A stretch of 44,669 nt of DNA from an uncultured Oscillospiraceae bacterium (GTDB lineage Bacteria > Bacillota > Clostridia > Oscillospirales > Oscillospiraceae), in NCBI GenBank assembly GCA_947632175.1, contig CANROC010000021.1, positions 1-44,669 of the forward strand. The letters run 5' to 3'. Positions 1,610 to 24,509 of the stretch are shown here, piece by piece. The notes below the pieces were generated by a model that ran no database searches, was not told the DNA's origin, and saw only the letters and a list, made by a program, of their open reading frames with translations. Made by a program: the position numbers and the translations under genes. Every line of letters begins with the position of its first letter. Positions within the stretch are counted from its first letter, which is position 1.

Positions 1610-2596
1610 ATGTCCAACAAATCGGTAGGCTTCGATATCGGCGCACGGACGGTGCATGTGGCGGTGAACGACGGCAAGACCTTGCGCGTCGTCAACGAGC
1701 AGACGCCGGAGGGGCTGGTACGGGAGGGGCAGATCCTGTCCCTTGAGGCGATGAGCGAATTTCTCCGTAACCTCAGGAAAGATCGGAAGCTCCACTGCAA
1801 AAAGGCCTCGCTGGTCCTGCCGGCGTCCCAGTGCTACTGCCGGCGGCTCACCACGGCGTATATGTCCGCCGAGCAGCTGGCGTTCAATCTGCCCTACGAG
1901 TTCCGGGATTTCATCTCCGGCGACAAGGAGGACTACTATTACGACTACGCGGTGGTGAACACCGTCGCCGGCGAGGACGGCAAGCCCCGGGAGCTGGACC
2001 TGATGGCCGCCGCCGTGCGGCGCGACCTGATGCTGGACCTGGAGGCCATGTTCAAGCAGGCCGGGTTCAAGCTGGAGTCGGCCATGCCCGAGGAGCTGGC
2101 GTACATCAACCTCATGCGCGCCGGCGGCCTGACGGACCACGGGCACTGTCTCCTGGACCTGGGCCACAGCTCCGTGAAGTTCTACATCTTCGAGGGCGAC
2201 CGGTTTGAGAACATCCGCGCCCTGGATTTCGGCCTGGAGGCCCTGGACCGCGCCGTGGCGGACCACTTCAGCGTGGACGAGCACGTGGCGTCCTCCTATC
2301 TCCGGTCCGATTACAACGGCTGCACCGGGCTTCCCCAGTGCATCGACATCTACAATTCCATCGCGGTGGAGGTCACCAAGGCCGTGAACTTCTACCGCTT
2401 CAACTCCGGCGGCGGGGAAGTGGAGCATCTGCACCTGTGCGGCGGCGGCACGCGCCTGTGGGCGCTGGTGGACACGCTCCAGTCGCAGCTGTCCATCCCC
2501 GTGGAGAGCATCGACGAGTGCTGGCCGCTGCTGGAGGACGAGTCCTCCGCCGAGGCCGCCGTGGCAGCCGCCGCCGTCGGCGCGGCCATCCAGTGA
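1610..2596 (+). CDS. pilM: type IV pilus assembly protein PilM
   Basis: Actin-like cytoplasmic ATPase-fold protein that binds the N-terminal tail of PilN and links the cytoplasmic motor to the inner-membrane alignment complex of type IV pili. It has 328 residues, close to the family norm. The nucleotide-fold motifs are visible: GFDIGARTVHVAV near residues 7-19 (phosphate 1), LLDLGHSSVKFYIFE near 183-197 (phosphate 2) and LCGGGTRLWALVDTL near 281-295 (adenosine loop). The ATG at 1610 has GAAAGGAG eight bases upstream. It is the first gene after the repeat-flanked DUF559 insertion and is followed at 15 bases by the pilN-like gene. Confidence 0.92.
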   Translation: MSNKSVGFDIGARTVHVAVNDGKTLRVVNEQTPEGLVREGQILSLEAMSEFLRNLRKDRKLHCKKASLVLPASQCYCRRLTTAYMSAEQLAFNLPYEFRDFISGDKEDYYYDYAVVNTVAGEDGKPRELDLMAAAVRRDLMLDLEAMFKQAGFKLESAMPEELAYINLMRAGGLTDHGHCLLDLGHSSVKFYIFEGDRFENIRALDFGLEALDRAVADHFSVDEHVASSYLRSDYNGCTGLPQCIDIYNSIAVEVTKAVNFYRFNSGGGEVEHLHLCGGGTRLWALVDTLQSQLSIPVESIDECWPLLEDESSAEAAVAAAAVGAAIQ

Positions 2597-2611: not shown

Positions 2612-3259
2612 ATGGCCCAACAGACCATAGAAAGAGCGCCCGAGGCGGCGCCCGCCGTGACGGAACCCGTAAAGAAAAAGCCCGTAAAAGGGAAGAAGCA
2701 GACCGCGCCGGTGAAGCGCACGCTGAACCTGGCGTTTAAGGAAAAATCCACCATCGACTGGCGAAAGGCCGTTGTGGGCGTACTGGTCGTGGTGCTTTTA
2801 GCCGGCGTCTTCGCCAAATTCGCCGTCATGGACCGGTTCGACAAGCTGGAAAAGGCCGAGGCGGATTTAGCCGCCATGAAGGCGCACCTCGAGGAGACGC
2901 GTGAGGCTTACGCCGACTACGACGAGGTCCGGGAGCAGTACAACCGCTACAACTACACCGGCTACGACAAGACCATCGTGGACCGGCTGGACGTCCTGGA
3001 CATCCTGGAGCGGCAGATCTTCCCCGTGTGCAACGTCACGAGCCTCTCCGTCTCCGGCGCCACCGTCACGCTGAGCCTTTCGGACCTTGACCTCAACCAG
3101 GTCAGCCACCTCATCGTCACATTAGAGGCCGAGCCCCTGGTGGAGCGCGTCTACGTGCCCGTGACCAACGAGGGCGAGGCGCAGGGCATCGGTACCGCGT
3201 CCATGACCATCTATCTGGTGAACGCCACCACCGTGGAGAAAGGGGGAGAGGCGCAATGA
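2612..3259 (+). CDS. pilN: PilN-like type IV pilus assembly protein
   Basis: A 215-residue bitopic membrane protein. It has a long basic, Lys/Pro-rich cytoplasmic N-terminus (about residues 1-50), one membrane helix (about 53-73, VVGVLVVVLLAGVFAKFAV), a predicted coiled coil (about 75-110) and a C-terminal ferredoxin-like domain. This is the layout of PilN, whose N-terminal tail docks into PilM and whose periplasmic-side domain pairs with PilO. Sequence identity to Gram-negative PilN is low, so the call rests on topology and gene order pilM-pilN-pilO. GAGGAG precedes the ATG. The stop overlaps the next start (ATGA). Confidence 0.82.
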   Translation: MAQQTIERAPEAAPAVTEPVKKKPVKGKKQTAPVKRTLNLAFKEKSTIDWRKAVVGVLVVVLLAGVFAKFAVMDRFDKLEKAEADLAAMKAHLEETREAYADYDEVREQYNRYNYTGYDKTIVDRLDVLDILERQIFPVCNVTSLSVSGATVTLSLSDLDLNQVSHLIVTLEAEPLVERVYVPVTNEGEAQGIGTASMTIYLVNATTVEKGGEAQ

Positions 3260-3819
3260 GGCAGAACGTCATGAACCACAAGCTCTCCAACCGCGAAAAG
3301 GTCCTGCTGCTGGTCCTGGTCCTGGTGCTCCTGGTGGGCCTCTACTTCTACGTGGTCCACTATCCCATCACCAACCGCCTCAGTGAAATCGAGCTGGAGC
3401 GGGACGACCTGCTGGTCTCCCAGGCCGTGGCCGACACGCGCCTCCAGATCTACAACGACATGCAGGCGGAGCTGGAGGAGATCTTCGCCATGCCCGAGGA
3501 GGAGATCACCGTCATGCCCGCGTACAGCAACCGGGAGACGTTGCTTCTCTACTTCGACAAGATTTTTGCCGGCACCAGCCAGGTCCTGAACTTCGATGAC
3601 GAGCGGGAGACCGACAACATCGTGGAGCGCACCGTGCGCTTCAGCTTCAACGCCGACAGCTACGCCAAGGCCCGCCAGGTCCTCACCGACCTCACCGTGG
3701 GCAGCGGCTACCGGTGCCTCTTGGATTCCCTCACCGTCAGCCCCGTGGAGGGGAACATCGAGTCCGGCGCCCTGCGCATCTCCGGCACCATCACCTTCTA
3801 CGAGTACAAGGCGGGCTGA
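3256..3819 (+). CDS. pilO: PilO-like type IV pilus assembly protein
   Basis: A 187-residue bitopic protein with a short cytoplasmic N-terminus, a membrane helix at about residues 14-34 (VLLLVLVLVLLVGLYFYVV), a coiled-coil stretch at about 36-75 and a C-terminal alpha/beta domain. This matches PilO, the heterodimer partner of PilN that connects the pilus platform to the cell-envelope side. The first ATG at 3256 is chosen because GGGGGAG lies seven bases upstream and the start overlaps the pilN stop, implying translational coupling; an ATG five codons later is possible. It is followed by a 286-base leader before the giant pilin gene. Confidence 0.82.
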   Translation: MRQNVMNHKLSNREKVLLLVLVLVLLVGLYFYVVHYPITNRLSEIELERDDLLVSQAVADTRLQIYNDMQAELEEIFAMPEEEITVMPAYSNRETLLLYFDKIFAGTSQVLNFDDERETDNIVERTVRFSFNADSYAKARQVLTDLTVGSGYRCLLDSLTVSPVEGNIESGALRISGTITFYEYKAG

Positions 3820-3866
3820 AAACGGGGATGTTATGGTAACTCAGGGGAGAGTTATGGTAACCGAGA

Positions 3867-3885: not shown

Positions 3886-3942
3886 AACCGAAAATTTGAG
3901 GACAAAAAAGCGGAAAAAGAGGGAGAAACTTACCAATATTTG

Positions 3943-4105: not shown

Positions 4106-7100
4106 ATGAGAGTTTTGAGAAAAAATAGGGAAAGCAGGGGCTTCTCGTTAGCGGAGCTTCTGATCGTCGTGGCCATTATCGGCATCCTTTTGGCCGTCGC
4201 GGTCCCCAATGTGCTCTCATATTACAGGGAATTGAAGATCACCGAGCTGGACGACGACGCCCGGACCATCTTCCTCGCCGCCCAGAACCAGCTCACCGCC
4301 CTCGTCAACAGCGGGGAGAAGCTTGACGGCATTGGCGAGACTGCCTCGCGCCTTGCAAAAGCCGGCGATCCATCTCCCAAGCTTCACTATGTGGAGTACA
4401 AGGCCGCCGACGCAGCCACCACCACGCCCACGGCACCCAGCGCGACAGGTTTACGTAAGATCCTCCCCGGCGGCGCGGTGGACACCCACTTCCACAAATA
4501 CAACTATGTCATTGAGTTCGACACCGAAAGCGGCGCCGTCTACGGCGTCTGGTACTGGGAGAAGGAAGACGGGTTTGAATATACCAAAGACGCCAAAACC
4601 GATAACCAGAAAAAGGAAGCCCGGCTCAAGAACAACCTCATGGTCGGCTTCTACGGCGGCGACCAGATCGACCGCCTCCAGTTCTCCCACCTCCCTTATC
4701 CCTCCGTCCAGCTCATCAACGCCGAAGAGCTGCGGCTGGAGATCACCGTCCCGAATATTGAGAAGGCCACCGGCGACTTCACCATCACCGTCTCCGCCGA
4801 CGACGTGGTACTTCTGGAAGACGCGAAGCTCAAGAAGAACAACATGGGCACCGTCGTCCTTGATACCCTGAAGGTCACGAACGCCTATTCTGCAAGCTTG
4901 ACGGAAGCGAGAAATAATGCCAGGACCGCCAGCGATTGGGTCGTGGGCATGAAGTACAAGAAATGGAGAGAGGCGCTTGGCGAGCTTCCTCTTCCCGGCG
5001 ACGACATCACCCTCACCGTCAAAATGTCCTACACGGGCGAAATTGACGGCAAATCCCTCACCCCCTCCACTTTGGTTGTTACCGGCAACACGCTGTTCGA
5101 AAAAGTGGAAGAAGATTCCACCGGCGATAAAACCGCCTACATCGCCTACGGCCGGCATTTGCAAAACCTCCATGATAGCGGACCCACATCCACCACGGAC
5201 GGGATTGCTTGCTCCGGTGTTTTGGACAATGTATCCATTAAGAAAGCTGAGCAGACGAAGAATATCAATTTCGCATTTCTAAATAACACTGGTGATAATA
5301 ACAACGATGTCTATTATTGGGCCAGCATCTACGGCAGGACGGCAGCCGGTACCCATGACGAGAAATATATTTCGCTCCATCCCATTTATAATAAGAATCT
5401 GACTTTTTACGACGGGCATGGCTTTGAGATTCGCAACATGGATACCGGACGGAATTACTATGGAGGAATGTTCTCCTATATCGTCGGCGGGACTTATCAG
5501 AACATTGTCCTTGTCAATCCCCATATTCACTCTGACTTTACAAAAACAGATCTTGGTTCGACGGTTGATAAGCAGTTGACAGCCGGAGCGCTGGTGGCAA
5601 TGGTCAAGGGTGAAGTTAAAATTACCAATTGCCATGTCTATAACGAGTATGTTGAGGACAAGGATAAGAATGTAAAGCCGGAAGGCGACTATGCAGAAAA
5701 TCCTTGGTTTGGTGCCACTGGTTTTAATTTGAATGGATTGAAAATAAAAGACTCAAGCGGTGATGCGGTCCAGTATAAGGATACAAACGGCGATGGAATA
5801 GTTGATGAGATAGTGCCCATCGAGGGCCTGTATGTTGAGAGGCTTCAAGAGATGCCGCATATTGGCGCGCCCGGAGCGGGTTCCATGTCCGGCGGTTTGA
5901 TTGGCGAGATCCAAAGCGGTAGTACGGTGACTATCACCGGTTCCTCCGCCGCCGTTATCAACATCGGCGCGAAAGCCGTGGGCGGTCTGGTAGGGAAGTC
6001 CGCGGGGAATTTGACCATTGATAAGTCTTATTCCGCCAGCTTTGTTTTCGGCAACCGGAACGTGGCCGGATTGGTTGGATTTGTGGAGGATACGACGGCA
6101 AATACCACAACCATTACCAACAGTTATGCCGCCGGCGAGATCGTGAGCGGGTACGACAAGGGATTCAAAGGCGCGGGACTGCTCCATTATAACGAGGAAG
6201 CAACCACAGAAACAACGCCAACCAACATTAAGGTTGAAAACTGCTACGCCGCTGTCCGGTACAATGGAGAGGGTGTAGATGGTCTGCCTCGAAGGGACGA
6301 CCAGGAAAAAAGAGATAATAAATTTTACGTTGTAGGGTATATCTATGGCACGTTTAAGGGTGACAATAGTAACCTGTATGTAAAGCAAAACGGCATATCC
6401 TATGGATATGACATAAAAGGCATTACGGTTACTGGTGGTAAGGGCGGAGAGTATATTACAGACAAGGGAGACGCCTCCGCTTGCGGCACTCCTATCACCA
6501 CTGCCGAACTGACTGCAAAGGTCACAAGCGGCTTCGGCGGTGAATGGAGCACTACACCGGGTACAACAGCCAACACCCACGCCTATACCCTCCTGACCGA
6601 GACGAAGGCGTTGGAGGGGGAGGCATACCCCTACCCCATGCTCAATGTTACGAAAAACGGCGTCACCACCGTCATGCCCCACTACGGCGACTGGCTGGAG
6701 GAGGACCCGACGGCGGCTTCGCTGTGCTATTATGAGAAATATGAGGGGGACACTTTCGGCGTCTGGGGCTATGTGACCGATAAGACGACGGACAATCAAA
6801 TACCGCTCAACTCCCTCAAGCCCGGCGACCCCGGCAAGGGCCCGTATGCCATAGCGGACGGCTACTGCGTGGCCGTAGAAGACGGCGCCAACCTGATCCC
6901 GCCGGAGACGATTACGGTAGGGTCGGAGACGTATAATGTCGATCGCACTTCCATTGGGACCACTGATAATGCAGGCAAAACCTACAACCTCTATCGGATC
7001 ACGGGCCTTGACGGCATCACAGTAGGCACAGACTATTATTACACCGCGACCGTGAGCGGGCAGGACTATTGGTTCAACCCGTTCTTCGCGTGCGAGGTGT

Positions 7101-10100
7101 TGGAAGCGGACGGCACAATGCCCACAGCGCCCCAAGCTAAAGAGGGCGCAAAGGGTAAGGACGATAATACTTCTACAGCCGGTGTCGTCATCCGCACCGC
7201 GCGCCAGCTTGCCAATTTGGCGTCGCAAACCGGGTCAACATTGAAAGCAGATAACCCCGCCCAGCTGCGTGCCTATACCCAGCTGTTGGATATTGATTAC
7301 GAACAGTATGAAACCTCCATCAAGGGACAGAGCGGCGGCACCGATGCCCAGTCCCCGGCGGCGCTGAGTGGTGCCGGAAGCTATAACGGCAACAGCTTTA
7401 TCATCAAAAACCTCTTTATCCAGGGAGACAGTAAAACCGGCCTCTTTGGAGAGTTGTCTTTAAGCGGCACTCAGGGCGTCAGAAACGTTTTCCTGGTGGA
7501 CGTGACCGTAAACGGGACGGGCAGTAATGTGGGCGCTTTGGTCGGTTCCGCCGCAGGCAGCACGGTTATAGATAACTGCGGCGTTTACGCGAGCAGCGCG
7601 GAGAACTATAAAACTCACTCTGTGACCGGTAATACGACCGTCGGCGGCCTCATCGGTATGGCGGGGAGCACTACCGTTATTAAGAACAGTTTCGCTGCTG
7701 TACAGGTCAAGGGCGATACAGCCGTTGGCGGCTTTGTCGGACAAATCAATGGGAACAAAAGCAGCGGTTCTCTTGAAAACTGCTATTCCGGCGGATTTAC
7801 CGAGAGCGGAAAGTATGAAGCCAGCTCGGCGAATGTAACCGCTAACGATACTAACGGCATTGCCGGCGGCTTTGTCGGCAAACTGATGAACTATTCCAAT
7901 GATAATGGAGGCAATCCAACCTACAATGGCCTTAAATTCCAAGGAACGATTTATACCACATGCTCTGTGAAAGGAGCAACTGTTGGGCTGTTTTCGGGGC
8001 AAAATTCTGAAGGAGCGGGTACAGGTCAACAGACGATCGAAGATGCTTTGACCGCCACCGGCCTCACCCTCTATGCGACGGGTAAGGCGTTCAATGCTGA
8101 CGGAACTGACGCGACGGCGCGGCCGGAGACTTACCTCAAGACCGGCAGCGATGTGCCCAAGGCTGTCGGCACCGGCGTGACGGCGTATCCGTATGACGGG
8201 ACGCTGAAGGATCCCGGTTTAGACACGGGTACATATCCGTATCTGACCAACCTCGACGAGCACCACGGCGACTGGGCGGACGTTTCGGAGCCGGTGCCGG
8301 AGATGATGCTGGCGTATATTGAGGAATACGTTGGCGTCACCGATCCCGGCGTGTACATGGTGAACTATAACGGCACGGTTGCGGACGATGTGCAACATAA
8401 TATTCAATTCGGTGCGGTCGTGAAGAACGACTATTACAGGATCCTCAGTACAATTGACTTGAGGACTGGCAGCAGCGTTACTGACATTACGCTGGACGGC
8501 ACACCATTTACAACAGGTGACTTGGTATCTCAAGGCACGGTCAAAATTGGCACTACCGATTACTATGCCTATACGCTTGGCGCCGACTGGGACAGCGCGG
8601 CAAACTACTACCACAAGGTCGAGTTGAAACTGGCGACTGGCGAGACCAAGACCTACCTCTACAACCCGTCTTTCGCCTGCGAGGCGTTTGACGTGACCGA
8701 TGCGGCCGGTACAGTTACAACAACAGATATCCTCCCCAAGCCCAACGCGGGCGGGACTATAACGTACACCAATACGGACGTGTTGATCAGGTCCGCGCGC
8801 CAGCTTGCCAATGTGCAGGCGTATACCAACCACACGACCTATGGCGCCACCGCGCAGGAGTGGACCTATGACCAGCTGCTGAATGTGGACTTCGACGGCT
8901 ACACGGGCACGCTGGCTGGGGGCAAGAGCGACAGCGACCGTCTCGGCCCCGCCAAGCTGACTACCGGCACCTACAACGGCAACGATCTCACCATCTCCAA
9001 CCTCTACCTCGGCGCGGGCACAATCGGGTCGGACGCATACGCCGGCCTCTTTGGGACGGTCAATGGCACCGTCAGCCACGTCCTCCTTGTCGATGTCAAC
9101 GTGAACGGCGACGCCACCGGCGTTTCCGCCCTTGCCGTCGGCGGCCTTGTCGGCCAGCTCAACGGCGGCAGCGTGGACAATTGCGGCATCTATGTGTCCA
9201 ATAAGGATAACTATGGCAAATTCACCGTCTCCGGCTCCGGCGGCAACGGCGTCGGCGGCCTCATCGGACAGATGACGGGGGGCGCCGTCACCAACTCCTT
9301 CGCCGCCGTGATGGTGCGGGGCACCGACGCGACAAATGGCGGCACTGGCGGCACCACCCTCACCAACCCCGCTGGCGGCTTCGTGGGCCAGGCCAACGGC
9401 GGCGAGTTCAAAAACTGCTACGTCGGCGGCTTCGTGGGCGCTTCCAAGACCTACGACGACGCTTCCATCAACGTCATGGGCAACAACCGCGTGGGCGGCT
9501 TCGTGGGCAGCATCTCCGGCACGGTCAAATTCACCGGCACCAACTACTCCACCGCCTCCGTGGGCGGCCCCGACCCGGCCAACCTCGGCCTCTTCGCCGG
9601 CAACGGCACGCCCTCCGGCACCGGCAGCACGCTCTACGCCGTTGCCAAGGCGTTCAAGAGCACCACGACCGGAACCTCGACGACCTACGACGACGTCGTC
9701 GCTCCCAGGGACGAGACTGCGTACCTGACGAGCGCCCCCGAGGCAACAACGGTGACAACGACGAACGTCTACAACCAGACGGGCGATTTCCCCTACGCCA
9801 GCGGGCAGACCGAGCACCACGGCGACTGGATCGGCCTGACCAAGGGCGTGTATTATGATACCGTGGTCCAGAACGCGGGGACTTCGCCCTCGCCTATTAC
9901 CGGCTACTATGCCAACGGCGCAAGCGGTTTGGACGGTAGCACCGGTAGGCTTGCCGCTGGTAATGCTAACGACGAATTATTGGATTACGCCACGGACGAC
10001 GGGTATATGTTCCTGTCGGAGACGGACCTGGGCGAAAAGGTGGCTCTCGGCATCAACGGCGCCAGTTTCCCAATGAGCAGGGTAAGGCTGACCACGGAGC

Positions 10101-13100
10101 TTGATGGGAACCAGTATGCCTACTACGTCCCGGCGGACGCGCTGAACACGATGCCGACGGACGGATATTACTTCACCGTCACCGTCAACGGCCAGTTCTT
10201 CACCGCCAACTTCGCCTTCGCGGGGGAGATCTTTGACGGAAAGGATGTTGACCACAGCAAGCCGGCGAAAAAGGACCTGCTGACGACCGCCGGCGTGATG
10301 ATCCGCACCCCGCGCCAGCTGGCGAACCTCGGCATAGCCACCAACAACGGCACCGAAGCCGGCAAGGCCCTGCGCGGCCTGAAGTATGTCCAGCTTCTGG
10401 ACCTCGACTACCGTGAAGGCAAATACGACAAAACCAAGATGCCGACTATCACGGACAAGGCCGGCAAAGAGTATAACCATGTCCCCATCACGCTTGACGG
10501 CCCAGATGCCGGGTATAACGGCAGCGGATACACGGTCCGCGGCCTGCTCCCCGGCACGCTGGTAGACGGCGAGTTTGCCGAAAACGGCATGTTCGGCAGC
10601 GTAAAGAACGGCGCAACGCTGGAGAATATCACGCTCGTCAACGCGAGAGTGGTGACGGATAATGATGTCAATAACGCCGTGATGAACAACGGGACACCGA
10701 GTGCAAGCAGTAGTAGTGGAACTCTTCGCGTGCTTGGAGATGATAATCTGACTGCGCGCAAGGCAACAACAAATGAAAATTTTACCTGCAGTGATGGAGA
10801 TTTTAATTTCAACATTTATCTCCAAAAAGATTCGGAAATACTGGACAGTGGGAATAAAACGATTAATGGGACAACAGCAAAAAAATATGTTAAATTTAAG
10901 GGTAGCGCGAAGATAAGCAATGGAGAATTGATTGATGGGATTGTTTTCACTACTAATTACAAAGCTTCGGTGAATGTCTGGTGGACAGATCCTTCTAAAA
11001 CGGATGTGCGACAAGTGAGAATCAACAGCTACGATTTTTCCAAAAAAGAGTTGACTGAAGTCGAAACTTCAACAAACGGTGTAGTAAACGACCAAATAGT
11101 ACATTCGACATTTGAACTGTCTTATGCTGGTACATTCTGCATCGGAAGTAAGAGCAGTGGTATCAATATTTATCGTATAGAGATAACAGAGTATACGCCT
11201 GCTGGTCCTGGAACAACACCTCCGGTAGCGGCCAACACGCCCACAGGGACAACTATACCCACCACCGCGAGAGTCCGCGCCGGTGCTCTTGCCGGCATCG
11301 TGGACGGCGCGACGGTCACCAACTGCGGCGCATATATCGAGGCGGAGACTGGTACGGGAGCGACTTACAAAACCGCTGACGAGGCGTATAACAGCTGTCT
11401 TGTCAAGAACGGCTACAAGAACAGCTCCGAGGACAATGTCGGCGGACTGATAGGGGCCGTGGAAAATTCCACCGTCACCAGCAGCTTCTCCGCCGTAAAA
11501 GTGCAGGGCATGAACTTCGTGGGCGGCTTTGCCGGTAAGCTCGGCGGCGACGGAGAGACTACCATTGAAAACTGCTACTCCGGCGGGCACACGCATAACG
11601 GGTCGTACTATGACGACGACGGTGCCATGACCAACGTCAGGGCAGACGGCGAAAACACCGGCGCGGGCGGCTTCGCGGGGCTTGTTTCAAAGAGCGGGAC
11701 CGTGGTATTCAAGGGCGTAAACTATACCACCAGCTCAGTAGGGCTGAATGGAAAGGCGACAGTGACCGCGGTTTCGAATCCGGAAAATGATAAAGACACA
11801 AACGACCCGCAGGTCAACAATGTGGAGACGGGCACTACGATCGGCGCGTTTTTCGGCAGGGTGGAGTATGTGAAGAATCATACCAACATCGTCACTACCG
11901 GCGCCATCAACTATGCCACCGGCACGCTGTTCAGCAACGGGAGCGCGATCAAGCGCAACGCAACGGCATCGACGACAAACGGCTATCGGTGGGATACAGA
12001 TAAATGGATTAAAGCAACAAGCGAAAAAAAGGCGTCGGTCCAGTATGTGACGGCGGATGAGAGCTTTACAAACGCCCTGGTCACCATGCTCGATCCGAGG
12101 ACGTCCGGCGGCGACGCGCCGTATGACTCACTTGGTGACACTTACCCGTATATGGCTGCAAAAGCCGCTGACGGGACGACTGAGCTTAAGCACCACGGCG
12201 ACTGGACGAATAGGCTGGACTTCATCTATTATGAGGTGTACGACGAAGACCACAAGGTCGATATGGACGCAATAGCCAACGATAAGACTGTAAAGGATGA
12301 TAATCTTGTTAAACTAATAAACGATGAGAAAATAGGCTTTTACGGGGAGCTGCGCGGCACTGGAGTCATCAACACGCTGCGTGATGATACTGTTGTCTAC
12401 GACAGTGGCTATATGGTGGTCAGCGATGCAGACATCGGACCGGTGGATATACAGCTCAGGACAGAGTATACCAAGGAGGGCGAGAACAACCCGAACCACT
12501 ACAATCAGGGCACGATTCTGAATATTAAAGACGTCAGAGATGCGGGAATTGGCGATGGGGTGGACTATGTCTATATCGTTCCTCACAGCGTTCTGAACAT
12601 CGCACCCAGTGACCACTACTACATGCTGGCGTACGTGAACGGCGTGACGTATGTATTCAATCCGCACTTTGCCGGCGAGGCCATAAATGTGGACCTTATT
12701 GACCTGGATGGCGTAAAGAACAACACTATCGATCTGGACAAGGTACGCGTGAAAAAGGGGCTTGAGTATGTTGACGCAGCAGGTGTAAACCACGATGATG
12801 TGAACGGCGTCGCCATCCGCAGTGCCTGGAACTTTGCCAGTATCGCGAGATACAGCCGCTCCAGTAACAACGGAGCCATAAAGACAACTATCCGCCAGAT
12901 GACCTTCTACCAGCTGATGGATATTGACTATACGGAGTACAAACAGGGGAAGATATACGACGGCAACGACAACAACAGGGTAAAGGTGGGCGGCGAGAAC
13001 AAGGATAAGTCCGGCTCCAGCTTTATCTACGGCAATGTTCCAATCATTCTGGACCACGGCACATATGAGGGCAACGGCCATACCATCAAAAACGTCTACC

Positions 13101-16100
13101 TCTCTAACGACAGCGGAAACGACAACAACTGTGTCGGACTGTTTGGAACGCTCACGGACGGAAGTAAGGTCAGAAACCTGACGGCTGAAAATATTTATCT
13201 GACCACAGGAAGCTCGAACGGGTCGGCACCGATCTACATGGGCGTTATCGCCGCAAGTGTGGACGGTGGCTCTACCATAGAGAACGTGAAAGTGTTGAGC
13301 CCCACGTTTGATTTGCACAGGGTACCGGTCCTCAAAGAGACAAAAAATAGCAGTGGCGATAAAGTGTATGAGTGGACTTATGATTCAGCACAGGCCAATG
13401 TCAGCGCCATCGGCGGTATCGTTGGAAAGCTTATTAACGGTTCTGTGACAGGTTCTGCAACAGAACCTTCGGTAGTCAACATCAGTATTAACCTTGACAG
13501 TGGCAGATACTACTACTTGGGCACTGATGATAAGGATGAAAACACGGCAAGGAACTCGCTTGAGGAATATGATACGAAAAAATCAACGACCAAACCGGCA
13601 GACGCACACCAGGCCAAGAGTGTGGTCAAGGACAATACCCCCATCAACATCGGCGGCGCGATCGGCGAGATCGACGCCTCGGCGAGCGGGGCCAGTGTCA
13701 GCGTCAAGAACGTCTACGTGGTCAACCCCAGCATTAACGCGAACAATGAAATTGATTCCGGTAACGGCAACATCGTCGGTGGCGTGATCGGCAAGGCGGA
13801 CGGCGGAGAGTACGTACAAGGGTCGTTCGACCCGACGACCAGCCGGAATATCACCATTGAAAACGCCGGGACGTATGTGGACGGAAGCAAGGCTGTTCCT
13901 GCGACGGACAACCATACGGCGTACAACACATTTACTGTCGAAGCCAACGGCGCTGGCACCGACGACCTGACCGGCGGCTTTGCGGGACGTACGGACCCGT
14001 TTGTGAAGCTCATCAAATGCTTCGCCGCGGTGAAAGTCGAAGGCGGTGAGTACGTCGGCGGCTTTGTCGGGGATCTCCAAGGCTCTTACATCGAAGACTG
14101 CTACTCCGGCGGCCACACCAAGGATGGAGAGTACAAAGACCCTGCCAACGTCAAGGGCTCCGGCGACGTCACCGGCGGCTTCGCCGGAAAGATCGAGAAT
14201 ACCACTGATAATAGCCTTGTACTCAAGGGAACCATCTACACCACCAGCTCCGTGAGCGGTACGGGCAAGGTGGGCCTCTTCCAGAGCGGCGAGGACAACA
14301 AAAACGCTGTCAAGAACGCCATGGATGCCGGCGGTGCCACACTCTACGCCACAGGCGAGGTCATAAGCGGCACGCATATTGACGAATCCAACTACCTGCT
14401 GACCGGCTCGTCAATACCGAGGCAGGACAACACGGATCCGACCAAGTTCACCACTTCGCCGTATGAAGACGAACTGATTACCAGTAAGGCTGTCTTCCCC
14501 TACCAGACGAACCTGCCCGAGCACCACGGCGACTGGATCGACGTTAACAGCGCGGGAGCGTTCTATTATGAGCTCGAGGGCGGCGCGTACCACTTCTACA
14601 CCGTGGACAGCGCGGGCAAGATCGCGAACGGGCTCACTGACGAGACTAACGGCGCAAGAGCCGGTCAGGAGATCACGCAGTGGGGCTATGGGTACTACTA
14701 CGCTGACGGCACGACCGATCCGGCAATCGCCGGGGCGACAGAGGCGGCTGCTGGCCTTGTGAACGCGCTGGGGAAGACAGGATGCAAGGTGATGGTGGTC
14801 AATAATGGTACGAGTACGGCCAACGCGGATCAGACGTGGACCATCGGCGGCAAGACGTTCACGGTCAACACGGCGTATGCCGCGGCGATCGCGGTCGATA
14901 CGGGCACGTCGGCACCCTATCAGATAAGGACGAAGGGGCAGCTTGCGAATATCGGCGATAGCAACAGCGAGAGCTTTGTCCAGACCCACGACATCGTCTT
15001 TAGCTCAGACAACACCCCCATCAACACCTTCCAGGGCAACTACAACGGCGGTTTCTACCGGATCCTCAACATCACAGCGCCGGTGTTTGACACGCTGGTG
15101 GGTAGCGCGAACATCCACAACGTGATCGTCTACGCGCCGCAGGGGTATGGCAGCAAAACCATCACCGGCCAGGGCGGGATCGCGAATACGTCCACCGGCA
15201 ATGTGACCATCGAAAACACCATCGCCGCCGGCTTCACCATCGGCCAGGGCGACAATGCCGGCGGCCTTGTGGGCTCGGTTGGTGGCGGTACGCTGACGAT
15301 TACCAACTGCGAAGCCACCAACACGCTCAAGGGCGCCAACGCCGGCGGCCTTGTGGGCCTCGTTGGCTCCGGCGGTACATTGACCATCACCAACAGCTAC
15401 GCCGGCGGCAGCATCACCGGCTCCGCCACCAGCGCCGGCGGCCTGGTGGGCTCCGGCACGGCTGCGAGTATCACCTACACGGACGTTTACGCCTACGTGG
15501 ATATGACGGCACTTACCGGCACGCCCACGATCTACGGCATCGGCCCGGGAGCGACGGGCGGGGACGGTTTGTACTGGAAAGACAGACTGCCGAGCGGCGC
15601 GAGCGTCAGTGACGATTCAAGTAACGCGGTGGAGCTTAACGGGCTTAACGGTACCGGCGGAGCGGGTGAGTACATAGCGCCGGACAGCACAGACTTCGAC
15701 AAGGGGCTTACGCCGCAGACGGAACCCTTCCCGTTCGTGGCGGTCGTGACGGATGGTACCAAGACGTACCATTACGGCGCGGTGCCGACGATCAACACAA
15801 CAAAAGCAGCGGGGCTGTTCTATTGGGAGAAGGAGGTTATTGACGGAGTAGAGCAGTACCACATCTATGCGTATGGCGGTGAGATCGACGACAGCGGTGG
15901 TACGCTTGCAGTTGAAAGCGCTAAGCTGTTGGCTGATACGCTGTGCCATAGTCACCATTTGGATGGTGAAAGAGCGAGCATAGTAGACAGCGGGTACGGC
16001 GTGTTCTATTCGGGCGATGTGCGCGATCTTAAGTTGAGCACAAAGGACGGACCTATTTACGATGTAACTTCTCTTGACAAAGTTGACTCAGTTGTCGAAA

Positions 16101-17581
16101 ATGAGCTACTCAGCGCAGCTAAGCTTGTAGATGGCACAAATGTGTATATGTTGCCGGAATCTGCAAATTCCGGTAAAGATGATACATGGACGTTGGGGAA
16201 ATTAGACAGTAGTAATAAAAACAAAGACATAGGGCTTGGCAATATTGAGGTATGCCAGTTGTACGGAGCGGCGATAGACAAGAAATTTGGCAATGGAGGT
16301 GATGGTGGAATTGGTTCTGATGTTGCCAACATACCAGTACAGATTCGTACAATTGATCAATTGCAAAATATTAAGGATTTGAATAACTCGACAAGTATAG
16401 AGTATTTCGCAATCACGCACGATTTGGACGGAACAGCGTTGACTTCTGATTATGAGCCGGTAACATTAAAAATAAACGTATTTAACGGGGGAGGGTACAG
16501 AATCTTCGACTTGAATATTAACCCGTCAAGCGGTGATGCGGCTTTATTCAACGAAACAAATGGCAAAACGATTAAGAACGTCATACTCTATTCCACAGAC
16601 GGCAATGGGGAAATCACGTCCAATAACGGCAACGCCGGAGGCATTGTCGCAACTTTAGGTAATGCGACAATAGAAAACTGCGTTGTCGCGGGGTACACCA
16701 TCTCAGGGACAAAGTATGTTGGAGGAATTGCTGGAGAGGCCAATAATAGCAATGCAAAAATTATAAGCTGTGCGTTTGTTGGTAATTTGATTGGTACAAG
16801 CGCGAATGGTATCGGCGGTATTGCAGGATTAATGACAGCAAATTACAATAATAGCGGTAGTAGCGGTAACGACGGTTATTTGAGGAATTGCTATGCCGGC
16901 GGAACAATCACAGGGAACGCTACACACATTGGAGGTATCTTCGGAGAAGGAAATTTAAAGAACGAAAATAGTGGTGACGTAAGAATCAGCGGTTGCTATA
17001 CCTACATGGATATGAGTGGAGCAAGCGGGACTAACGTTTATACGATTGGTAACGTTGATGCAACCAATACGCGTCTATTTGACGCCGGTACTTGCTACTA
17101 CCTCGATGACAGCAACCGTATTCCAACCGGCGCAACGCAGCAGGGGACAGGCAAGAGTTACGACGATCTGAAAACCGCGCTGAGCGGTGATTCGATCGGC
17201 ACGGCGACGAGCAGCTATGTGCCTAACGGCAAACCCGCCGGAAGTACAAATAGCGCTGACGGAATGAAGGCTCAGACCACCAACTTCCCGTTCCCGGCTG
17301 TGGTGCGTGAGGTCAACTCTGACGGCAGCTACACCGCTACCTACGTCCACTACGGCGAATGGCCTGCGGATCCGGCAGGAGGCCCCGCCGGCGATCCCGG
17401 TATCCCGGAGGGCCCCGGGGTGATCTCCGCGCCGCTGGAGGCGCTGGTCCCGCCGGCGCTGAAGCTTCCCGATGAGACGCAGGAGGCAGACCCGGAGGAC
17501 GACAGCCACACCGAGGTCGTCCGCCGCCGCGTCCAGACCGCCCTCGTCCGCCGCGCGAAAAAGCGGACCCAGGAGGTATGA
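4106..17581 (+). CDS. giant type IV prepilin with GLUG-repeat adhesin body (4491 aa)
   Basis: The N-terminus MRVLRKNRESRGFSLAELL is a class III prepilin signal: cleavage is expected after Gly12, Phe13 becomes +1 and Glu17 is +5, followed by the pilin helix. A pilin-like domain runs to about residue 210. The rest is about six large modules. Most open with an IRTARQLANL-type motif, contain pairs of GLUG motifs (GGFVG or GGLIG, then an NCYSGG-like strand; at least 25 GGxxG cores seen) and close with YPY...EHHGDW, which recurs near residues 857, 1384, 1902, 2695 and 3471, with weaker HYGA and HYGEW near 3887 and 4413. GLUG repeats are known from bacterial surface proteins and adhesins. An AT-richer insertion at about 2195-2370 looks like a carbohydrate-binding beta-sandwich. 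DTNGDGIVDE at 559-568 resembles a calcium loop. The tail is basic and there is no LPXTG. The ATG at 4106 has GAGGTG upstream; the frame is open from 3896, but that part is leader. Ordinary pilins have 130-200 residues. Likely role, inferred: a pilus-tip or pilus-anchored adhesin. Confidence 0.88.
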   Translation: MRVLRKNRESRGFSLAELLIVVAIIGILLAVAVPNVLSYYRELKITELDDDARTIFLAAQNQLTALVNSGEKLDGIGETASRLAKAGDPSPKLHYVEYKAADAATTTPTAPSATGLRKILPGGAVDTHFHKYNYVIEFDTESGAVYGVWYWEKEDGFEYTKDAKTDNQKKEARLKNNLMVGFYGGDQIDRLQFSHLPYPSVQLINAEELRLEITVPNIEKATGDFTITVSADDVVLLEDAKLKKNNMGTVVLDTLKVTNAYSASLTEARNNARTASDWVVGMKYKKWREALGELPLPGDDITLTVKMSYTGEIDGKSLTPSTLVVTGNTLFEKVEEDSTGDKTAYIAYGRHLQNLHDSGPTSTTDGIACSGVLDNVSIKKAEQTKNINFAFLNNTGDNNNDVYYWASIYGRTAAGTHDEKYISLHPIYNKNLTFYDGHGFEIRNMDTGRNYYGGMFSYIVGGTYQNIVLVNPHIHSDFTKTDLGSTVDKQLTAGALVAMVKGEVKITNCHVYNEYVEDKDKNVKPEGDYAENPWFGATGFNLNGLKIKDSSGDAVQYKDTNGDGIVDEIVPIEGLYVERLQEMPHIGAPGAGSMSGGLIGEIQSGSTVTITGSSAAVINIGAKAVGGLVGKSAGNLTIDKSYSASFVFGNRNVAGLVGFVEDTTANTTTITNSYAAGEIVSGYDKGFKGAGLLHYNEEATTETTPTNIKVENCYAAVRYNGEGVDGLPRRDDQEKRDNKFYVVGYIYGTFKGDNSNLYVKQNGISYGYDIKGITVTGGKGGEYITDKGDASACGTPITTAELTAKVTSGFGGEWSTTPGTTANTHAYTLLTETKALEGEAYPYPMLNVTKNGVTTVMPHYGDWLEEDPTAASLCYYEKYEGDTFGVWGYVTDKTTDNQIPLNSLKPGDPGKGPYAIADGYCVAVEDGANLIPPETITVGSETYNVDRTSIGTTDNAGKTYNLYRITGLDGITVGTDYYYTATVSGQDYWFNPFFACEVLEADGTMPTAPQAKEGAKGKDDNTSTAGVVIRTARQLANLASQTGSTLKADNPAQLRAYTQLLDIDYEQYETSIKGQSGGTDAQSPAALSGAGSYNGNSFIIKNLFIQGDSKTGLFGELSLSGTQGVRNVFLVDVTVNGTGSNVGALVGSAAGSTVIDNCGVYASSAENYKTHSVTGNTTVGGLIGMAGSTTVIKNSFAAVQVKGDTAVGGFVGQINGNKSSGSLENCYSGGFTESGKYEASSANVTANDTNGIAGGFVGKLMNYSNDNGGNPTYNGLKFQGTIYTTCSVKGATVGLFSGQNSEGAGTGQQTIEDALTATGLTLYATGKAFNADGTDATARPETYLKTGSDVPKAVGTGVTAYPYDGTLKDPGLDTGTYPYLTNLDEHHGDWADVSEPVPEMMLAYIEEYVGVTDPGVYMVNYNGTVADDVQHNIQFGAVVKNDYYRILSTIDLRTGSSVTDITLDGTPFTTGDLVSQGTVKIGTTDYYAYTLGADWDSAANYYHKVELKLATGETKTYLYNPSFACEAFDVTDAAGTVTTTDILPKPNAGGTITYTNTDVLIRSARQLANVQAYTNHTTYGATAQEWTYDQLLNVDFDGYTGTLAGGKSDSDRLGPAKLTTGTYNGNDLTISNLYLGAGTIGSDAYAGLFGTVNGTVSHVLLVDVNVNGDATGVSALAVGGLVGQLNGGSVDNCGIYVSNKDNYGKFTVSGSGGNGVGGLIGQMTGGAVTNSFAAVMVRGTDATNGGTGGTTLTNPAGGFVGQANGGEFKNCYVGGFVGASKTYDDASINVMGNNRVGGFVGSISGTVKFTGTNYSTASVGGPDPANLGLFAGNGTPSGTGSTLYAVAKAFKSTTTGTSTTYDDVVAPRDETAYLTSAPEATTVTTTNVYNQTGDFPYASGQTEHHGDWIGLTKGVYYDTVVQNAGTSPSPITGYYANGASGLDGSTGRLAAGNANDELLDYATDDGYMFLSETDLGEKVALGINGASFPMSRVRLTTELDGNQYAYYVPADALNTMPTDGYYFTVTVNGQFFTANFAFAGEIFDGKDVDHSKPAKKDLLTTAGVMIRTPRQLANLGIATNNGTEAGKALRGLKYVQLLDLDYREGKYDKTKMPTITDKAGKEYNHVPITLDGPDAGYNGSGYTVRGLLPGTLVDGEFAENGMFGSVKNGATLENITLVNARVVTDNDVNNAVMNNGTPSASSSSGTLRVLGDDNLTARKATTNENFTCSDGDFNFNIYLQKDSEILDSGNKTINGTTAKKYVKFKGSAKISNGELIDGIVFTTNYKASVNVWWTDPSKTDVRQVRINSYDFSKKELTEVETSTNGVVNDQIVHSTFELSYAGTFCIGSKSSGINIYRIEITEYTPAGPGTTPPVAANTPTGTTIPTTARVRAGALAGIVDGATVTNCGAYIEAETGTGATYKTADEAYNSCLVKNGYKNSSEDNVGGLIGAVENSTVTSSFSAVKVQGMNFVGGFAGKLGGDGETTIENCYSGGHTHNGSYYDDDGAMTNVRADGENTGAGGFAGLVSKSGTVVFKGVNYTTSSVGLNGKATVTAVSNPENDKDTNDPQVNNVETGTTIGAFFGRVEYVKNHTNIVTTGAINYATGTLFSNGSAIKRNATASTTNGYRWDTDKWIKATSEKKASVQYVTADESFTNALVTMLDPRTSGGDAPYDSLGDTYPYMAAKAADGTTELKHHGDWTNRLDFIYYEVYDEDHKVDMDAIANDKTVKDDNLVKLINDEKIGFYGELRGTGVINTLRDDTVVYDSGYMVVSDADIGPVDIQLRTEYTKEGENNPNHYNQGTILNIKDVRDAGIGDGVDYVYIVPHSVLNIAPSDHYYMLAYVNGVTYVFNPHFAGEAINVDLIDLDGVKNNTIDLDKVRVKKGLEYVDAAGVNHDDVNGVAIRSAWNFASIARYSRSSNNGAIKTTIRQMTFYQLMDIDYTEYKQGKIYDGNDNNRVKVGGENKDKSGSSFIYGNVPIILDHGTYEGNGHTIKNVYLSNDSGNDNNCVGLFGTLTDGSKVRNLTAENIYLTTGSSNGSAPIYMGVIAASVDGGSTIENVKVLSPTFDLHRVPVLKETKNSSGDKVYEWTYDSAQANVSAIGGIVGKLINGSVTGSATEPSVVNISINLDSGRYYYLGTDDKDENTARNSLEEYDTKKSTTKPADAHQAKSVVKDNTPINIGGAIGEIDASASGASVSVKNVYVVNPSINANNEIDSGNGNIVGGVIGKADGGEYVQGSFDPTTSRNITIENAGTYVDGSKAVPATDNHTAYNTFTVEANGAGTDDLTGGFAGRTDPFVKLIKCFAAVKVEGGEYVGGFVGDLQGSYIEDCYSGGHTKDGEYKDPANVKGSGDVTGGFAGKIENTTDNSLVLKGTIYTTSSVSGTGKVGLFQSGEDNKNAVKNAMDAGGATLYATGEVISGTHIDESNYLLTGSSIPRQDNTDPTKFTTSPYEDELITSKAVFPYQTNLPEHHGDWIDVNSAGAFYYELEGGAYHFYTVDSAGKIANGLTDETNGARAGQEITQWGYGYYYADGTTDPAIAGATEAAAGLVNALGKTGCKVMVVNNGTSTANADQTWTIGGKTFTVNTAYAAAIAVDTGTSAPYQIRTKGQLANIGDSNSESFVQTHDIVFSSDNTPINTFQGNYNGGFYRILNITAPVFDTLVGSANIHNVIVYAPQGYGSKTITGQGGIANTSTGNVTIENTIAAGFTIGQGDNAGGLVGSVGGGTLTITNCEATNTLKGANAGGLVGLVGSGGTLTITNSYAGGSITGSATSAGGLVGSGTAASITYTDVYAYVDMTALTGTPTIYGIGPGATGGDGLYWKDRLPSGASVSDDSSNAVELNGLNGTGGAGEYIAPDSTDFDKGLTPQTEPFPFVAVVTDGTKTYHYGAVPTINTTKAAGLFYWEKEVIDGVEQYHIYAYGGEIDDSGGTLAVESAKLLADTLCHSHHLDGERASIVDSGYGVFYSGDVRDLKLSTKDGPIYDVTSLDKVDSVVENELLSAAKLVDGTNVYMLPESANSGKDDTWTLGKLDSSNKNKDIGLGNIEVCQLYGAAIDKKFGNGGDGGIGSDVANIPVQIRTIDQLQNIKDLNNSTSIEYFAITHDLDGTALTSDYEPVTLKINVFNGGGYRIFDLNINPSSGDAALFNETNGKTIKNVILYSTDGNGEITSNNGNAGGIVATLGNATIENCVVAGYTISGTKYVGGIAGEANNSNAKIISCAFVGNLIGTSANGIGGIAGLMTANYNNSGSSGNDGYLRNCYAGGTITGNATHIGGIFGEGNLKNENSGDVRISGCYTYMDMSGASGTNVYTIGNVDATNTRLFDAGTCYYLDDSNRIPTGATQQGTGKSYDDLKTALSGDSIGTATSSYVPNGKPAGSTNSADGMKAQTTNFPFPAVVREVNSDGSYTATYVHYGEWPADPAGGPAGDPGIPEGPGVISAPLEALVPPALKLPDETQEADPEDDSHTEVVRRRVQTALVRRAKKRTQEV

Positions 17582-17620: not shown

Positions 17621-18430
17621 ATGAGGCGCGCTGCCGAGAAACTGAAAAGCCATTCCGGGGCGACGATCCTGTTCGCCCTCCTCGTCTTCATGCTGTGCAT
17701 CCTGGCCGGGACGGGGGCGCTGACCGCCGCCGCGGCCAACTCCGGGCGCTATACGCACCTGAAGGAGGACCAGCAGCAGTACCTGTCCGTCAGCTCCGCC
17801 GCCAATCTCCTCAAGACCGAGCTGTCCGGTAAGACCTTCACCGCAAAGGTGAGAGTGACGGAGGAGGTAACATCTGATTCCAGCGGTGCGACCACAACGA
17901 AACGAACGGCAGAGTGGGTTGCACCGGCGGGAGGAGGGAACTCCTCTTATGACGGCGACAACTTAAAAACGTTGCTGATTGGCCAGCTTGAACAGCTGTT
18001 TGAGTACGGCGTATACAGCAGCGCAGGACCACTTGATACCACCAGTACATTCCATGTGATATCCACCCACCCCACAAAGTTGGAAAAAAAACTCACTCTT
18101 AACGCGGGCGGTGATATTCCCGCAGTCACGGCAAATCTGACCATGGGAACAGACGCGTCCGACCTCACCGCCAGCGACTTCACCATCACCGTCGTGCTCA
18201 ACGACGGGCAGAAGTACGCCACCACCCTGACGCTTGTGGCGACCTTCGCCGCCGGCGCGGGGGAAAACGGGCTGAATAGCACACAAATCAGTCAGGAAAC
18301 GACGGAAACCGGCGGCGTGAAGACCACGACCACCGTCACCGAGTACGCCATGGAGGTCCGCTGGCTTCCGGGGAACGCCCACGTGGCCGCCGTGCCGGAG
18401 CCCCCGTCCACCACGGGAGCGGGAGGTTGA
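17621..18430 (+). CDS. pilus-associated membrane-anchored protein (PilX-like position)
   Basis: A 269-residue protein with a basic N-terminus and a single hydrophobic helix, SGATILFALLVFMLCILAG (about residues 12-30), followed by a Thr/Ser-rich extracellular domain. The helix resembles a pilin N-terminal segment, but Phe stands at about +5 instead of Glu after the candidate Gly, so cleavage by the prepilin peptidase is uncertain. In pilus operons a gene of this kind and position often encodes a PilX-like minor component; that is inference. AAGGAGGTG precedes the ATG, 40 bases after the giant pilin stop. It overlaps the next gene at its end. Confidence 0.65.
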   Translation: MRRAAEKLKSHSGATILFALLVFMLCILAGTGALTAAAANSGRYTHLKEDQQQYLSVSSAANLLKTELSGKTFTAKVRVTEEVTSDSSGATTTKRTAEWVAPAGGGNSSYDGDNLKTLLIGQLEQLFEYGVYSSAGPLDTTSTFHVISTHPTKLEKKLTLNAGGDIPAVTANLTMGTDASDLTASDFTITVVLNDGQKYATTLTLVATFAAGAGENGLNSTQISQETTETGGVKTTTTVTEYAMEVRWLPGNAHVAAVPEPPSTTGAGG

Positions 18431-18432
18431 CC

Positions 18433-18744
18433 ATGAGGAAGCTTATGAACAGGCTGCGCTCCCGCGCGGGGGAGTCCTTCGCCGAGGTGCTTGTCGCCCT
18501 GCTGATCGTCGCTTTAGCGGCGCTGCTGCTGGCGGGGATGTACTCCGCCTCCTCCGCCCTGGACAAAAACGCCATGGAGAGCGACAAGAAGCTCTATGAG
18601 GCGGTGACAAAGCTGGAGACGACCACCGAACCCGGCACAACGGGTCATGTCACGATCTCGGGAGAAGCCCCAACGGCGTCCGACCCGACCATCCCCATCG
18701 AGATCTACACCGAGGACGGCCTGACCGCCTATCAGGGGAGGTGA
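18433..18744 (+). CDS. minor prepilin-like protein (PilV/GspI-like)
   Basis: A 104-residue protein with the prepilin signal SRAGESFAEVLVALLIVALA: cleavage is expected after Gly14, with Glu at +5, then a continuous hydrophobic helix and a short soluble domain. The ATG at 18433 is used because GGGAGG stands seven bases upstream; a TTG at 18427 overlapping the previous stop is the alternative. The short size and position in the operon suggest a minor pilin that primes assembly or caps the tip. Confidence 0.75.
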   Translation: MRKLMNRLRSRAGESFAEVLVALLIVALAALLLAGMYSASSALDKNAMESDKKLYEAVTKLETTTEPGTTGHVTISGEAPTASDPTIPIEIYTEDGLTAYQGR

Positions 18745-18749
18745 GCGCC

Positions 18750-19280
18750 ATGAGAAAGAAGCTTCGCTCCCGCCGGGGGTTCAGCCTGACGGAAGTGCTG
18801 ATCTGCGTGGTGCTCCTGGCGCTGATGAGCGCCGCCGGCGCCACCGTGGCCTCCGCGGTGCTGAGCACCCGCAACGACATGTTGGAGACCGCCGACGCCC
18901 AGGTCCTGGCCTCCACCGTCCTGGAGGCGGTGTCCAACGAGATCCGCTACGGCGAGTACGTGACGCTGACGACCACAGGCAGGACTACCACGCTGACCCT
19001 TACCAGCTCCACTTTCGGGGTGAATACAGAGTTTTCGGCTGAGAGCGGCCATGTCACCGTCGCCAGCAGCGTCATTACCTCCTCGACGGGCGAGTCCTAT
19101 AAAAAGCTCCTCCCCGACAGCGCCTACACAATGGGCCTTACGGTGACGGGTCTGACTTTCGAAAAGGGCGACGGAAACTCCGTCAAGATCACCGTCACCC
19201 TCCAGGGCCGTGGGGACCACGCCTGGACAAAGTCCCTGACGGTCACCCCCCTGAACGGCCTCACCGTAAAGACATCTTAA
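18750..19280 (+). CDS. minor prepilin-like protein (PilW/GspJ-like)
   Basis: A 176-residue protein with the class III prepilin motif RRGFSLTEVLICVVLLALMS: cleavage after Gly10, Phe +1 and Glu +5, followed by a beta-rich C-terminal domain. The ATG at 18750 follows GGGGAGGTG by six bases; a GTG at 18741 overlapping the previous gene is less likely. It ends the pilus gene run. A GC hairpin separates it from the signalling genes. Confidence 0.78.
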   Translation: MRKKLRSRRGFSLTEVLICVVLLALMSAAGATVASAVLSTRNDMLETADAQVLASTVLEAVSNEIRYGEYVTLTTTGRTTTLTLTSSTFGVNTEFSAESGHVTVASSVITSSTGESYKKLLPDSAYTMGLTVTGLTFEKGDGNSVKITVTLQGRGDHAWTKSLTVTPLNGLTVKTS

Positions 19281-19309: not shown

Positions 19310-19349
19310 CGGCGTTGTGTTCAATTTGATACATTTGGAAAGGCAAACT

Positions 19350-24480: not shown

Positions 24481-24509
24481 ATTATACCACAAATCAAGCA
24501 ATTTGTCAA
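24481..24509 (-). promoter_or_regulatory. perfect consensus sigma-A promoter pointing into the kinase gene
   Basis: On the minus strand the sequence reads TTGACA (24509-24504), a 17-base spacer, then TATAAT (24486-24481): an exact vegetative consensus. Transcription would start near 24474 and run antisense through the 3' end of the hybrid kinase. It sits directly after the terminator of the minus-strand collagen-like gene. Confidence 0.7.

Follow-up and report, generated by a model that had tools for sequence, protein, structure and literature searches.

What does a protein that starts as a type IV prepilin and continues for thousands of residues do in a pilus operon? The question arose from a 44,669 bp stretch of DNA of an uncultured Oscillospiraceae bacterium (contig CANROC010000021.1), here called the window. 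The original prediction had described a 4491-residue product with a prepilin leader (Gly12, Phe at +1, Glu at +5), and our analysis confirmed both claims. The gene (4106..17581, + strand) is one uninterrupted frame of 4,491 aa with an ATG start and GAGGTG upstream, and the giant modular prepilin that it encodes was delimited by this frame, the leader models and the module ends. The class III leader peptide of 12 aa (4106..4141, +), with Gly as last residue, reads MRVLRKNRESRG/FSLAELLIVV. Two curated models recognised it above their cut-offs, namely Pfam N_methyl (26.2 bits vs 21.2) and NCBIfam TIGR02532 (23.3 vs 16.3).

The leader is followed by a pilin module (aa 13-200; 4142..4705, +; alignment A1) with a hydrophobic alpha1 helix carrying Glu5, as in type IV pilins, and then a conserved part. 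This helix is the single strongly hydrophobic segment of the giant: the top Kyte-Doolittle windows begin at aa 15-19 (3.0 to 2.8), and past aa 60 the top window reaches 1.26. Profile searches of the pilin module against solved pilins gave matches over alpha1 only (top E 2.2e-13). Next comes a conserved connector (aa 201-340; 4706..5125, +; alignments A1 and A2), which we guess to be Ig-like. Glu5 was invariant across 17 aligned giants. In the 60 loci described below it was found in 55 giants by a pattern that itself requires E, D or Q at this position, and four of the remaining five (the fifth being L088) showed it on direct reading. N_methyl was below cut-off or unreported in four of 12 relatives scanned (L054, L063, L077 and L064).

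At its C-terminus the giant ends in a proline-rich and then basic tail (17366..17578, +) without LPXTG-like motif or membrane segment. A pattern search for LP.T[GAN] found no such motif in the whole protein, and the Pfam scan and motif search detected neither a sortase anchor (LPXTG plus membrane tail) nor an SLH anchor.

The body between connector and tail was divided into seven modules, one more than the about six of the original prediction, based on the self-similarity of fragments and on H[HY]GDW-like ends. All are encoded on the + strand: module 1 (aa 341-863; 5126..6694, ending in PHYGDW), module 2 (aa 864-1390; 6695..8275), module 3 (aa 1391-1908; 8276..9829), module 4 (aa 1909-2700; 9830..12205) and module 5 (aa 2701-3477; 12206..14536), the latter four ending in HHGDW, module 6 (aa 3478-3894; 14537..15787, ending in HYGAVP) and module 7 (aa 3895-4420; 15788..17365, ending in HYGEWP). 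H[HY]GDW thus closes modules 1-5 at aa 863, 1390, 1908, 2700 and 3477, and the last two close with HYGAVP at 3894 and HYGEWP at 4420.

At least 25 GLUG-type motifs had been claimed as well. The core regex [AG]G[LFI][VIAF]G found 25 in the giant, while 2,000 shuffles averaged 0.48 and never gave more than 5; however, the Pfam GLUG model (PF07581) reached 19.7 bits, below its cut-off of 20.5. Due to this score we call the repeats GLUG-type and do not count them as formal GLUG members. Among 12 relatives scanned, Pfam GLUG was above cut-off in four (L052, L057, L060 and L067), below it in three and unreported in five. The module profile matched PDB 3n6z, a putative IgA1 protease (E 1.1e-15), and phmmer with one module as query found no match among solved structures. 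A Pfam scan of the entire giant reported N_methyl and Glug only, without any peptidase domain; matches to Peptidase_M26_N below threshold were present in two relatives, L055 and L077. A pilin module is thereby joined to seven modules that are not pilus-specific, as the 3n6z profile match indicates, and this is the composition of a modular pilin.

Two more large GLUG-type proteins, alike in body but differing in anchor, are encoded on contig C2 of the same genome (L070 and L071; frames of 2,290 and 1,871 aa). Each carries three SLH stretches, the strongest near the C-terminus, and Pfam GLUG scored far above cut-off in L070 and just below it (19.7) in L071. Since both carry SLH stretches, GLUG-type bodies can be regarded as surface parts in the source genome. 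A separate observation concerns the 3,162-aa giant prepilin at L064:3448-12936 (-). By eye it has a C-terminal hydrophobic stretch and a basic tail, unlike the other C-termini compared, and it is perhaps anchored at both ends.

As would be expected of a type IV pilin gene, the giant gene adjoins pilus assembly genes. The window starts with the gene for the prepilin peptidase PilD (1..558, +; Pfam Peptidase_A24 54.9 bits), whose 5' end is lost at the contig start. It is followed by genes for PilM (1610..2596, +; Pfam PilM_2 62.1 bits, cut-off 27), a PilN-like protein (2612..3259, +; Pfam PilN 17.6 bits) and a PilO-like protein (3256..3819, +; Pfam T2SSM 21.6 bits). Of the predicted pilM-N-O operon with minor-pilin-like genes, PilM scored above its cut-off and the minor-pilin-like genes follow the giant; PilN and PilO scored below their cut-offs and are named by position as well.

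The last 77 bases of contig C24 of the same genome are exactly the first 77 of the window, and this contig supplies the pilD start. Additionally, it holds two T2SSE-type ATPase genes, a platform gene and two small pilin genes. The joined order is pilB-pilT-pilC-pilA1-pilA2-pilD-pilM-pilN-pilO-giant-K-I-J, in which the labels pilB, pilT and pilC were given from gene order, length and sequence. The putative second, PilT-like ATPase points to a pilus that retracts and not to a secretion system. Downstream of the operon lies a gene for a receiver-HD-GGDEF protein (19317..21470, +; Pfam), a possible regulator, which adjoins the operon in the genomes G117 and G020 too (L049 and L051). An Hpt gene and a hybrid kinase gene come after it.

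Several further features of the locus were recorded. A run of 8 or 9 G is located exactly at the junction of leader and alpha1 of pilA1 in four related genomes (L047:11652 on contig C24, the upstream neighbour of the window; L080:1722; L050:4539; L091:211). Leader and pilin body of pilA1 are out of frame in two of these four assemblies, which suggests phase variation by slippage or else assembly uncertainty. A pilus switch by replication slippage is reported for Bifidobacterium breve in the accessible part of PMC9187656. In the gap of about 286 bp ahead of the giant gene, GTTATGGTAAC is found four times (window positions 3830, 3851, 4026 and 4044), together with the palindrome TTATGTAAACTTTACATAA. 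Near the same place two copies of GTTATGGTAAC are present in L048 and three in L083. Both elements are possible regulator sites or mobile-element remains. A DUF559 gene (Pfam) lies amid repeated G-rich units between pilD and pilM (window about 570-1600), and a similar-looking gene with repeats was read by eye between pilT and pilC on contig C24 (L047:9436-10100); perhaps this is a repeat element travelling with such a gene. An Rfam search of L047, L050, L052, L053, L097, L111 and L118 for riboswitches returned one tRNA only.

Three small minor-pilin-like genes directly follow the giant. Tip complexes of the H-I-J-K type are known as GspH-K and as FimU-PilV-W-X. The first small gene (17621..18430, +) encodes a protein with the N-terminus G/ATILF and without Glu5, here named K-like. 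The I-like gene (18433..18744, +; G/ESFAE) has Glu5 and weak ComGE and GspI matches below the cut-offs. The J-like gene (18741..19280, +) reached 26.9 bits with Pfam N_methyl, above the cut-off, and members of the J-like alignment showed weak PilV, ComGE and ComGF matches. F, M, L, I or V stood at +5 in 29 of 33 K-like proteins, the other four being unparsed, and PilX_N was found in one of 18 K-like proteins scanned. According to the accessible part of PMC9934059, the K subunit of H-I-J-K complexes is without Glu5 and caps the filament. We take the absence of Glu5 in the product of the first small gene as the mark of a putative tip-capping K subunit.

None of the specific minor-pilin models of Pfam and NCBIfam reached its cut-off with the trio proteins of the window, and searches of solved structures with the trio gave pilin N-terminal matches or nothing. 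The labels I, J and K were given from the order of the genes, the N-termini of their products and weak profile matches. As in H-I-J-K gene sets, four minor pilin genes stand together and one product is without Glu5; by exclusion, the giant would fill the fourth, H-like place. An orphan small pilin on contig C15 of the same genome is a rival candidate for H. Furthermore, the N_methyl search of the genome gave five matches and missed the K- and I-like genes, so that a diverged H could be missed too.

To see how far the giant form extends, three samples of genomes were compared. In the family sample of 150 genomes, 28 matched the first 335 residues at E<=0.001 (ordinary pilins included), and in 16 of these 28, the window's own genome counted, the match lay on an open frame of >=700 aa. 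In the order sample (295 genomes) at least 82 matched the profile at E<=0.001. Seven of 398 genomes of the phylum sample matched at E 1e-15, the own one included; long frames outside the order were found in G616 (2,182 aa) and G786 (1,244 aa), and G643 (1,893 aa, same class) matched over alpha1 only. The giant-pilin form seems to be centred on this order, judged by matches for which the E cut-offs of the order and phylum samples differ. Among the 20 genomes of the order sample with the best PilM matches, at least 12 appeared among the matches listed with a giant-type protein on a frame of >=700 aa, indicating that the giant is absent from some pilus genomes. The nearest named genomes were uncultured Oscillospiraceae bins. 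Of the 30 named loci, 26 came from 'Lapin' bins, which we read as rabbit, and no enrichment is claimed.

To compare gene neighbourhoods, we searched the fetched loci with profiles of the pilus proteins encoded in the window. A set of 60 loci, the window included, was defined by a giant-type N-terminus on a frame of >300 aa. Left out were duplicates (L081, L085, L087, L089, L103 and L107), L082 from another bin, where the giant is incomplete and stops at 1,407 aa, loci without giant start (L049, L051 and L059), loci replaced by L075-L078 (L048, L050, L058 and L066), the loci L069, L073 and L074, and matches of <=300 aa or E >1e-6, e.g. L106 and L130. Three giant-type loci per bin were present in two bins and two in three bins.

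In 38 of the 60 loci two or three members of the K-, I- and J-like trio lay within 4 kb on the same strand, and 31 loci had all three. The trio followed the giant in 29 loci and preceded it in nine, with no mixed arrangement. This linkage survives rearrangement, which suggests that the products work together. In eight loci assembly genes were present and the giant ran off the available sequence; eight others lay near sequence ends, without a call on neighbours. Six giants were alone by the script test (>2.5 kb on both sides), although one of them, L123, has an adjoining K-like gene. Outside the 60, no trio was found at L069 (372 aa) and L073 (1,106 aa). Giant prepilins of 1,533-2,260 aa without any pil gene found nearby were seen at L065, L078, L084, L086, L092 and L096; of these L078, L084 and L096 are close to a contig end, and some lone-giant genomes also hold an operonic giant. 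Lone giants are possible spare tips for one machine.

The 49 complete proteins, window included, form a size series from 482 to 5,255 aa with a median of 2,260 aa; 42 had >=1,000 aa and 29 >=2,000 aa. Of the 20 regions picked from the order matches, 19 had been chosen for long frames or coverage; the twentieth, L130, extended the view around a short match, and the 30 named loci had not been picked by length. The original prediction had proposed a search for prepilin-GLUG fusions elsewhere, and this architecture was indeed found, on uninterrupted frames, in many other genomes.

A comparison with the sister genome G117 (same genus) showed which parts of the locus vary. PilM, PilN, PilO and the GGDEF protein were 91-96% identical in amino acids (dS 0.08-0.22). 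The giant was 81% identical in the pilin part, 75% in the connector and 43-58% in the modules, where dS was 0.53-1.83 or saturated. The K- and J-like proteins had identities of 69% and 75%, respectively. Nucleotide identity drops from the giant start, reaches its minimum or disappears over the modules and comes back once the minor pilin genes are passed. Further breaks lie at about 500-1500 (DUF559 gene and repeats) and near 24500. In every computable segment dN/dS was <1, with 0.26-0.66 in six modules and saturation in module 7. This makes the import or long retention of divergent alleles likely, and not relaxed constraint.

Judged by these identities, a conserved machinery carries a presumably exposed body that is hypervariable. 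Module 1 was 77% identical to L082 from another bin and 46% identical to G117, and modules 4 and 5 scored slightly higher with their counterparts in G020. On this evidence the modules are mosaic among genomes. In a tree of 55 N-terminal parts, whose bootstrap is not settled and which has some long branches, operonic giants occurred throughout and the others in several places, several of them near the window's clade; the label 'alone' in this tree also covers undecided loci.

From the leader, the modules, the operon, the trio genes standing with most giants, the series of sizes and the hypervariability, we assign a probability of roughly 0.6 to the following role: the giant is a modular minor pilin which, in an H-like place, forms a tip complex with the K-, I- and J-like trio and serves as a long multivalent adhesin. 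Processing, incorporation, tip place and adhesion could then proceed as follows. PilD would cut the giant after Gly12, and the Glu5-bearing alpha1 helix would pack into the filament like that of other pilins, with the module chain projecting outward. The four minor pilins would prime assembly, so the modules of the giant would exit the cell first and end up at the pilus tip. Retraction might then draw the cell toward whatever the modules hold. Similar giants in relatives stand mostly beside the same small pilin genes, and for this reason the giant is probably a built-in tip adhesin. A conserved machine with a hypervariable body is what would be expected of a surface facing a changing ligand, host or phage. 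A bolder form of this proposal, which we put at somewhat less than even odds, would see in the pilin set of this order a monoderm counterpart of PilY1: the H-place pilin would have turned into a mast, extensible module by module, that crowns the pilus, with mosaic exchange of modules on an unchanging machine and, in some genomes, stand-alone copies maybe acting as interchangeable tips.

According to the original prediction, either the pilus machine delivers a tip adhesin or an adhesin borrows the pilin anchor. Gene linkage favours the former. If the pilin helix only held the giant in the membrane as a surface stalk that never enters a pilus, the lack of an LPXTG-like motif or SLH domain in the window protein would be understandable, as would giants such as those at L065 and L086, with no pil gene near them in the available sequence; for giants standing away from any pil gene found, the borrowed anchor may accordingly apply. 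As a general explanation we regard it as doubtful, because 38 of 60 loci keep the giant together with K-, I- and J-like genes, whichever side these are on, and because the other GLUG-type proteins of the genome use SLH, which makes a pilin helix needless for mere holding. A placement within the filament could also be lateral. Scattered along the pilus, the giants would make it brush-like and adhesive; Glu5 permits insertion anywhere in principle, and PMC8179133 leaves, in its accessible part, the body position of modular pilins open. The bulk of >4,000 residues, and a neighbourhood that includes a K-like gene without Glu5 as well as two more minor-pilin-like genes, render this improbable.

The divergence itself could be the purpose, with the body as a shield, decoy or antigenic surface, e.g. 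against phages or antibodies, and strong divergence is in fact limited to the body and its small neighbours. We think this very improbable, given that dN/dS is <1 in the six computable modules and the motif plan is kept, pointing to a structured function that is maintained. That the giant results from misassembly, or from a pilin frame and an adhesin frame joined by chance, might be considered for a draft genome of 82 contigs. Intact giants of up to 5,255 aa occur elsewhere, which makes a broken frame or misassembly unlikely. Since many genomes share this architecture on uninterrupted frames and dN/dS is <1 along the body, we gave the explanation hardly any weight and rejected it. The tip-adhesin reading accordingly remains our preferred one. 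The contrast of conserved machine and hypervariable body points to ligand, host or phage pressure, and the operon suggests that a pilin may carry a body >20 times the size of an ordinary pilin.

How does the giant compare with known systems? We take IPR011493 to be InterPro's GLUG entry. Modular pilins were defined in Streptococcus sanguinis and surveyed in InterPro, with >1,200 proteins in 264 architectures (accessible part of PMC8179133, 2021); one architecture named there, IPR012902-IPR011493, is read as an M26 peptidase, and the word GLUG is absent from the main text. If our assumption on IPR011493 holds, pairings of pilin and GLUG were probably already counted in this survey, and the reading as M26 peptidase is doubtful for such proteins, since no peptidase domain was reported in the giant. 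In light of the survey, the 'unusual surface system' of the original prediction has to be toned down, as pilins with grafted modules are already known. The spread over the order, the series of sizes and the hypervariable body lay beyond what that prediction could see.

According to the accessible parts of PMC8179133 and PMC9934059, PilB and PilC of S. sanguinis resemble the giant in having a class III leader, a pilin module with Glu5 and extra surface domains on the C-terminal side. Their genes, too, stand with those of further minor pilins, among them PilA, which is without Glu5. However, they have a mass of about 50 kDa and carry one or two extra domains, compared with seven repeat modules and 4,491 aa, and the most extreme modular pilin of the survey has 860 residues with 12 copies of one motif (PMC8179133). 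In the open-licence literature searched, as far as its text was accessible, we found no pilin of this size described; the 'large pilin locus' of PMC6958937 was rejected as a precedent, as there the locus is large and not the pilin. The size, the tip-like operon setting and the hypervariable body therefore appear to be new within that literature.

The GLUG-type surface protein 3n6z, a putative IgA1 protease, matches the module profile, while the giant differs from it by the pilin leader and by having no peptidase domain reported. The operon resembles H-I-J-K complexes in that four minor-pilin genes stand together and one, the K-like, is Glu5-less. Unlike in these complexes, one of the four would itself carry the effector, and the one-to-one identities are unconfirmed by profiles. 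In Tad pili, where KilN or TadG are the large subunits of tip complexes, large minor pilins likewise expose variable domains at the tip, but this is another pilus class with other domains (accessible part of PMC12075869).

By analogy of function, the giant may also be likened to PilY1/PilC of diderm type IV pili, a very large effector that is presented at the tip and works together with minor pilins. PilY1 itself is no pilin, and its C-terminal beta-propeller was not found in the giant when the entire sequence was scanned with Pfam. Monoderms are said to lack PilY1, and in S. sanguinis modular pilins display the adhesive parts instead (accessible part of PMC9934059). For such adhesion in other monoderms, the operon of giant and trio, found in most loci, offers a concrete and testable case in gut bacteria. 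The giant could be the monoderm counterpart, in one polypeptide, of the separate PilY1 adhesin on diderm pili; in itself it belongs to the known kind of modular pilins, but is many times larger, stands in a tip-like set of four genes and has a form that is spread over an order.
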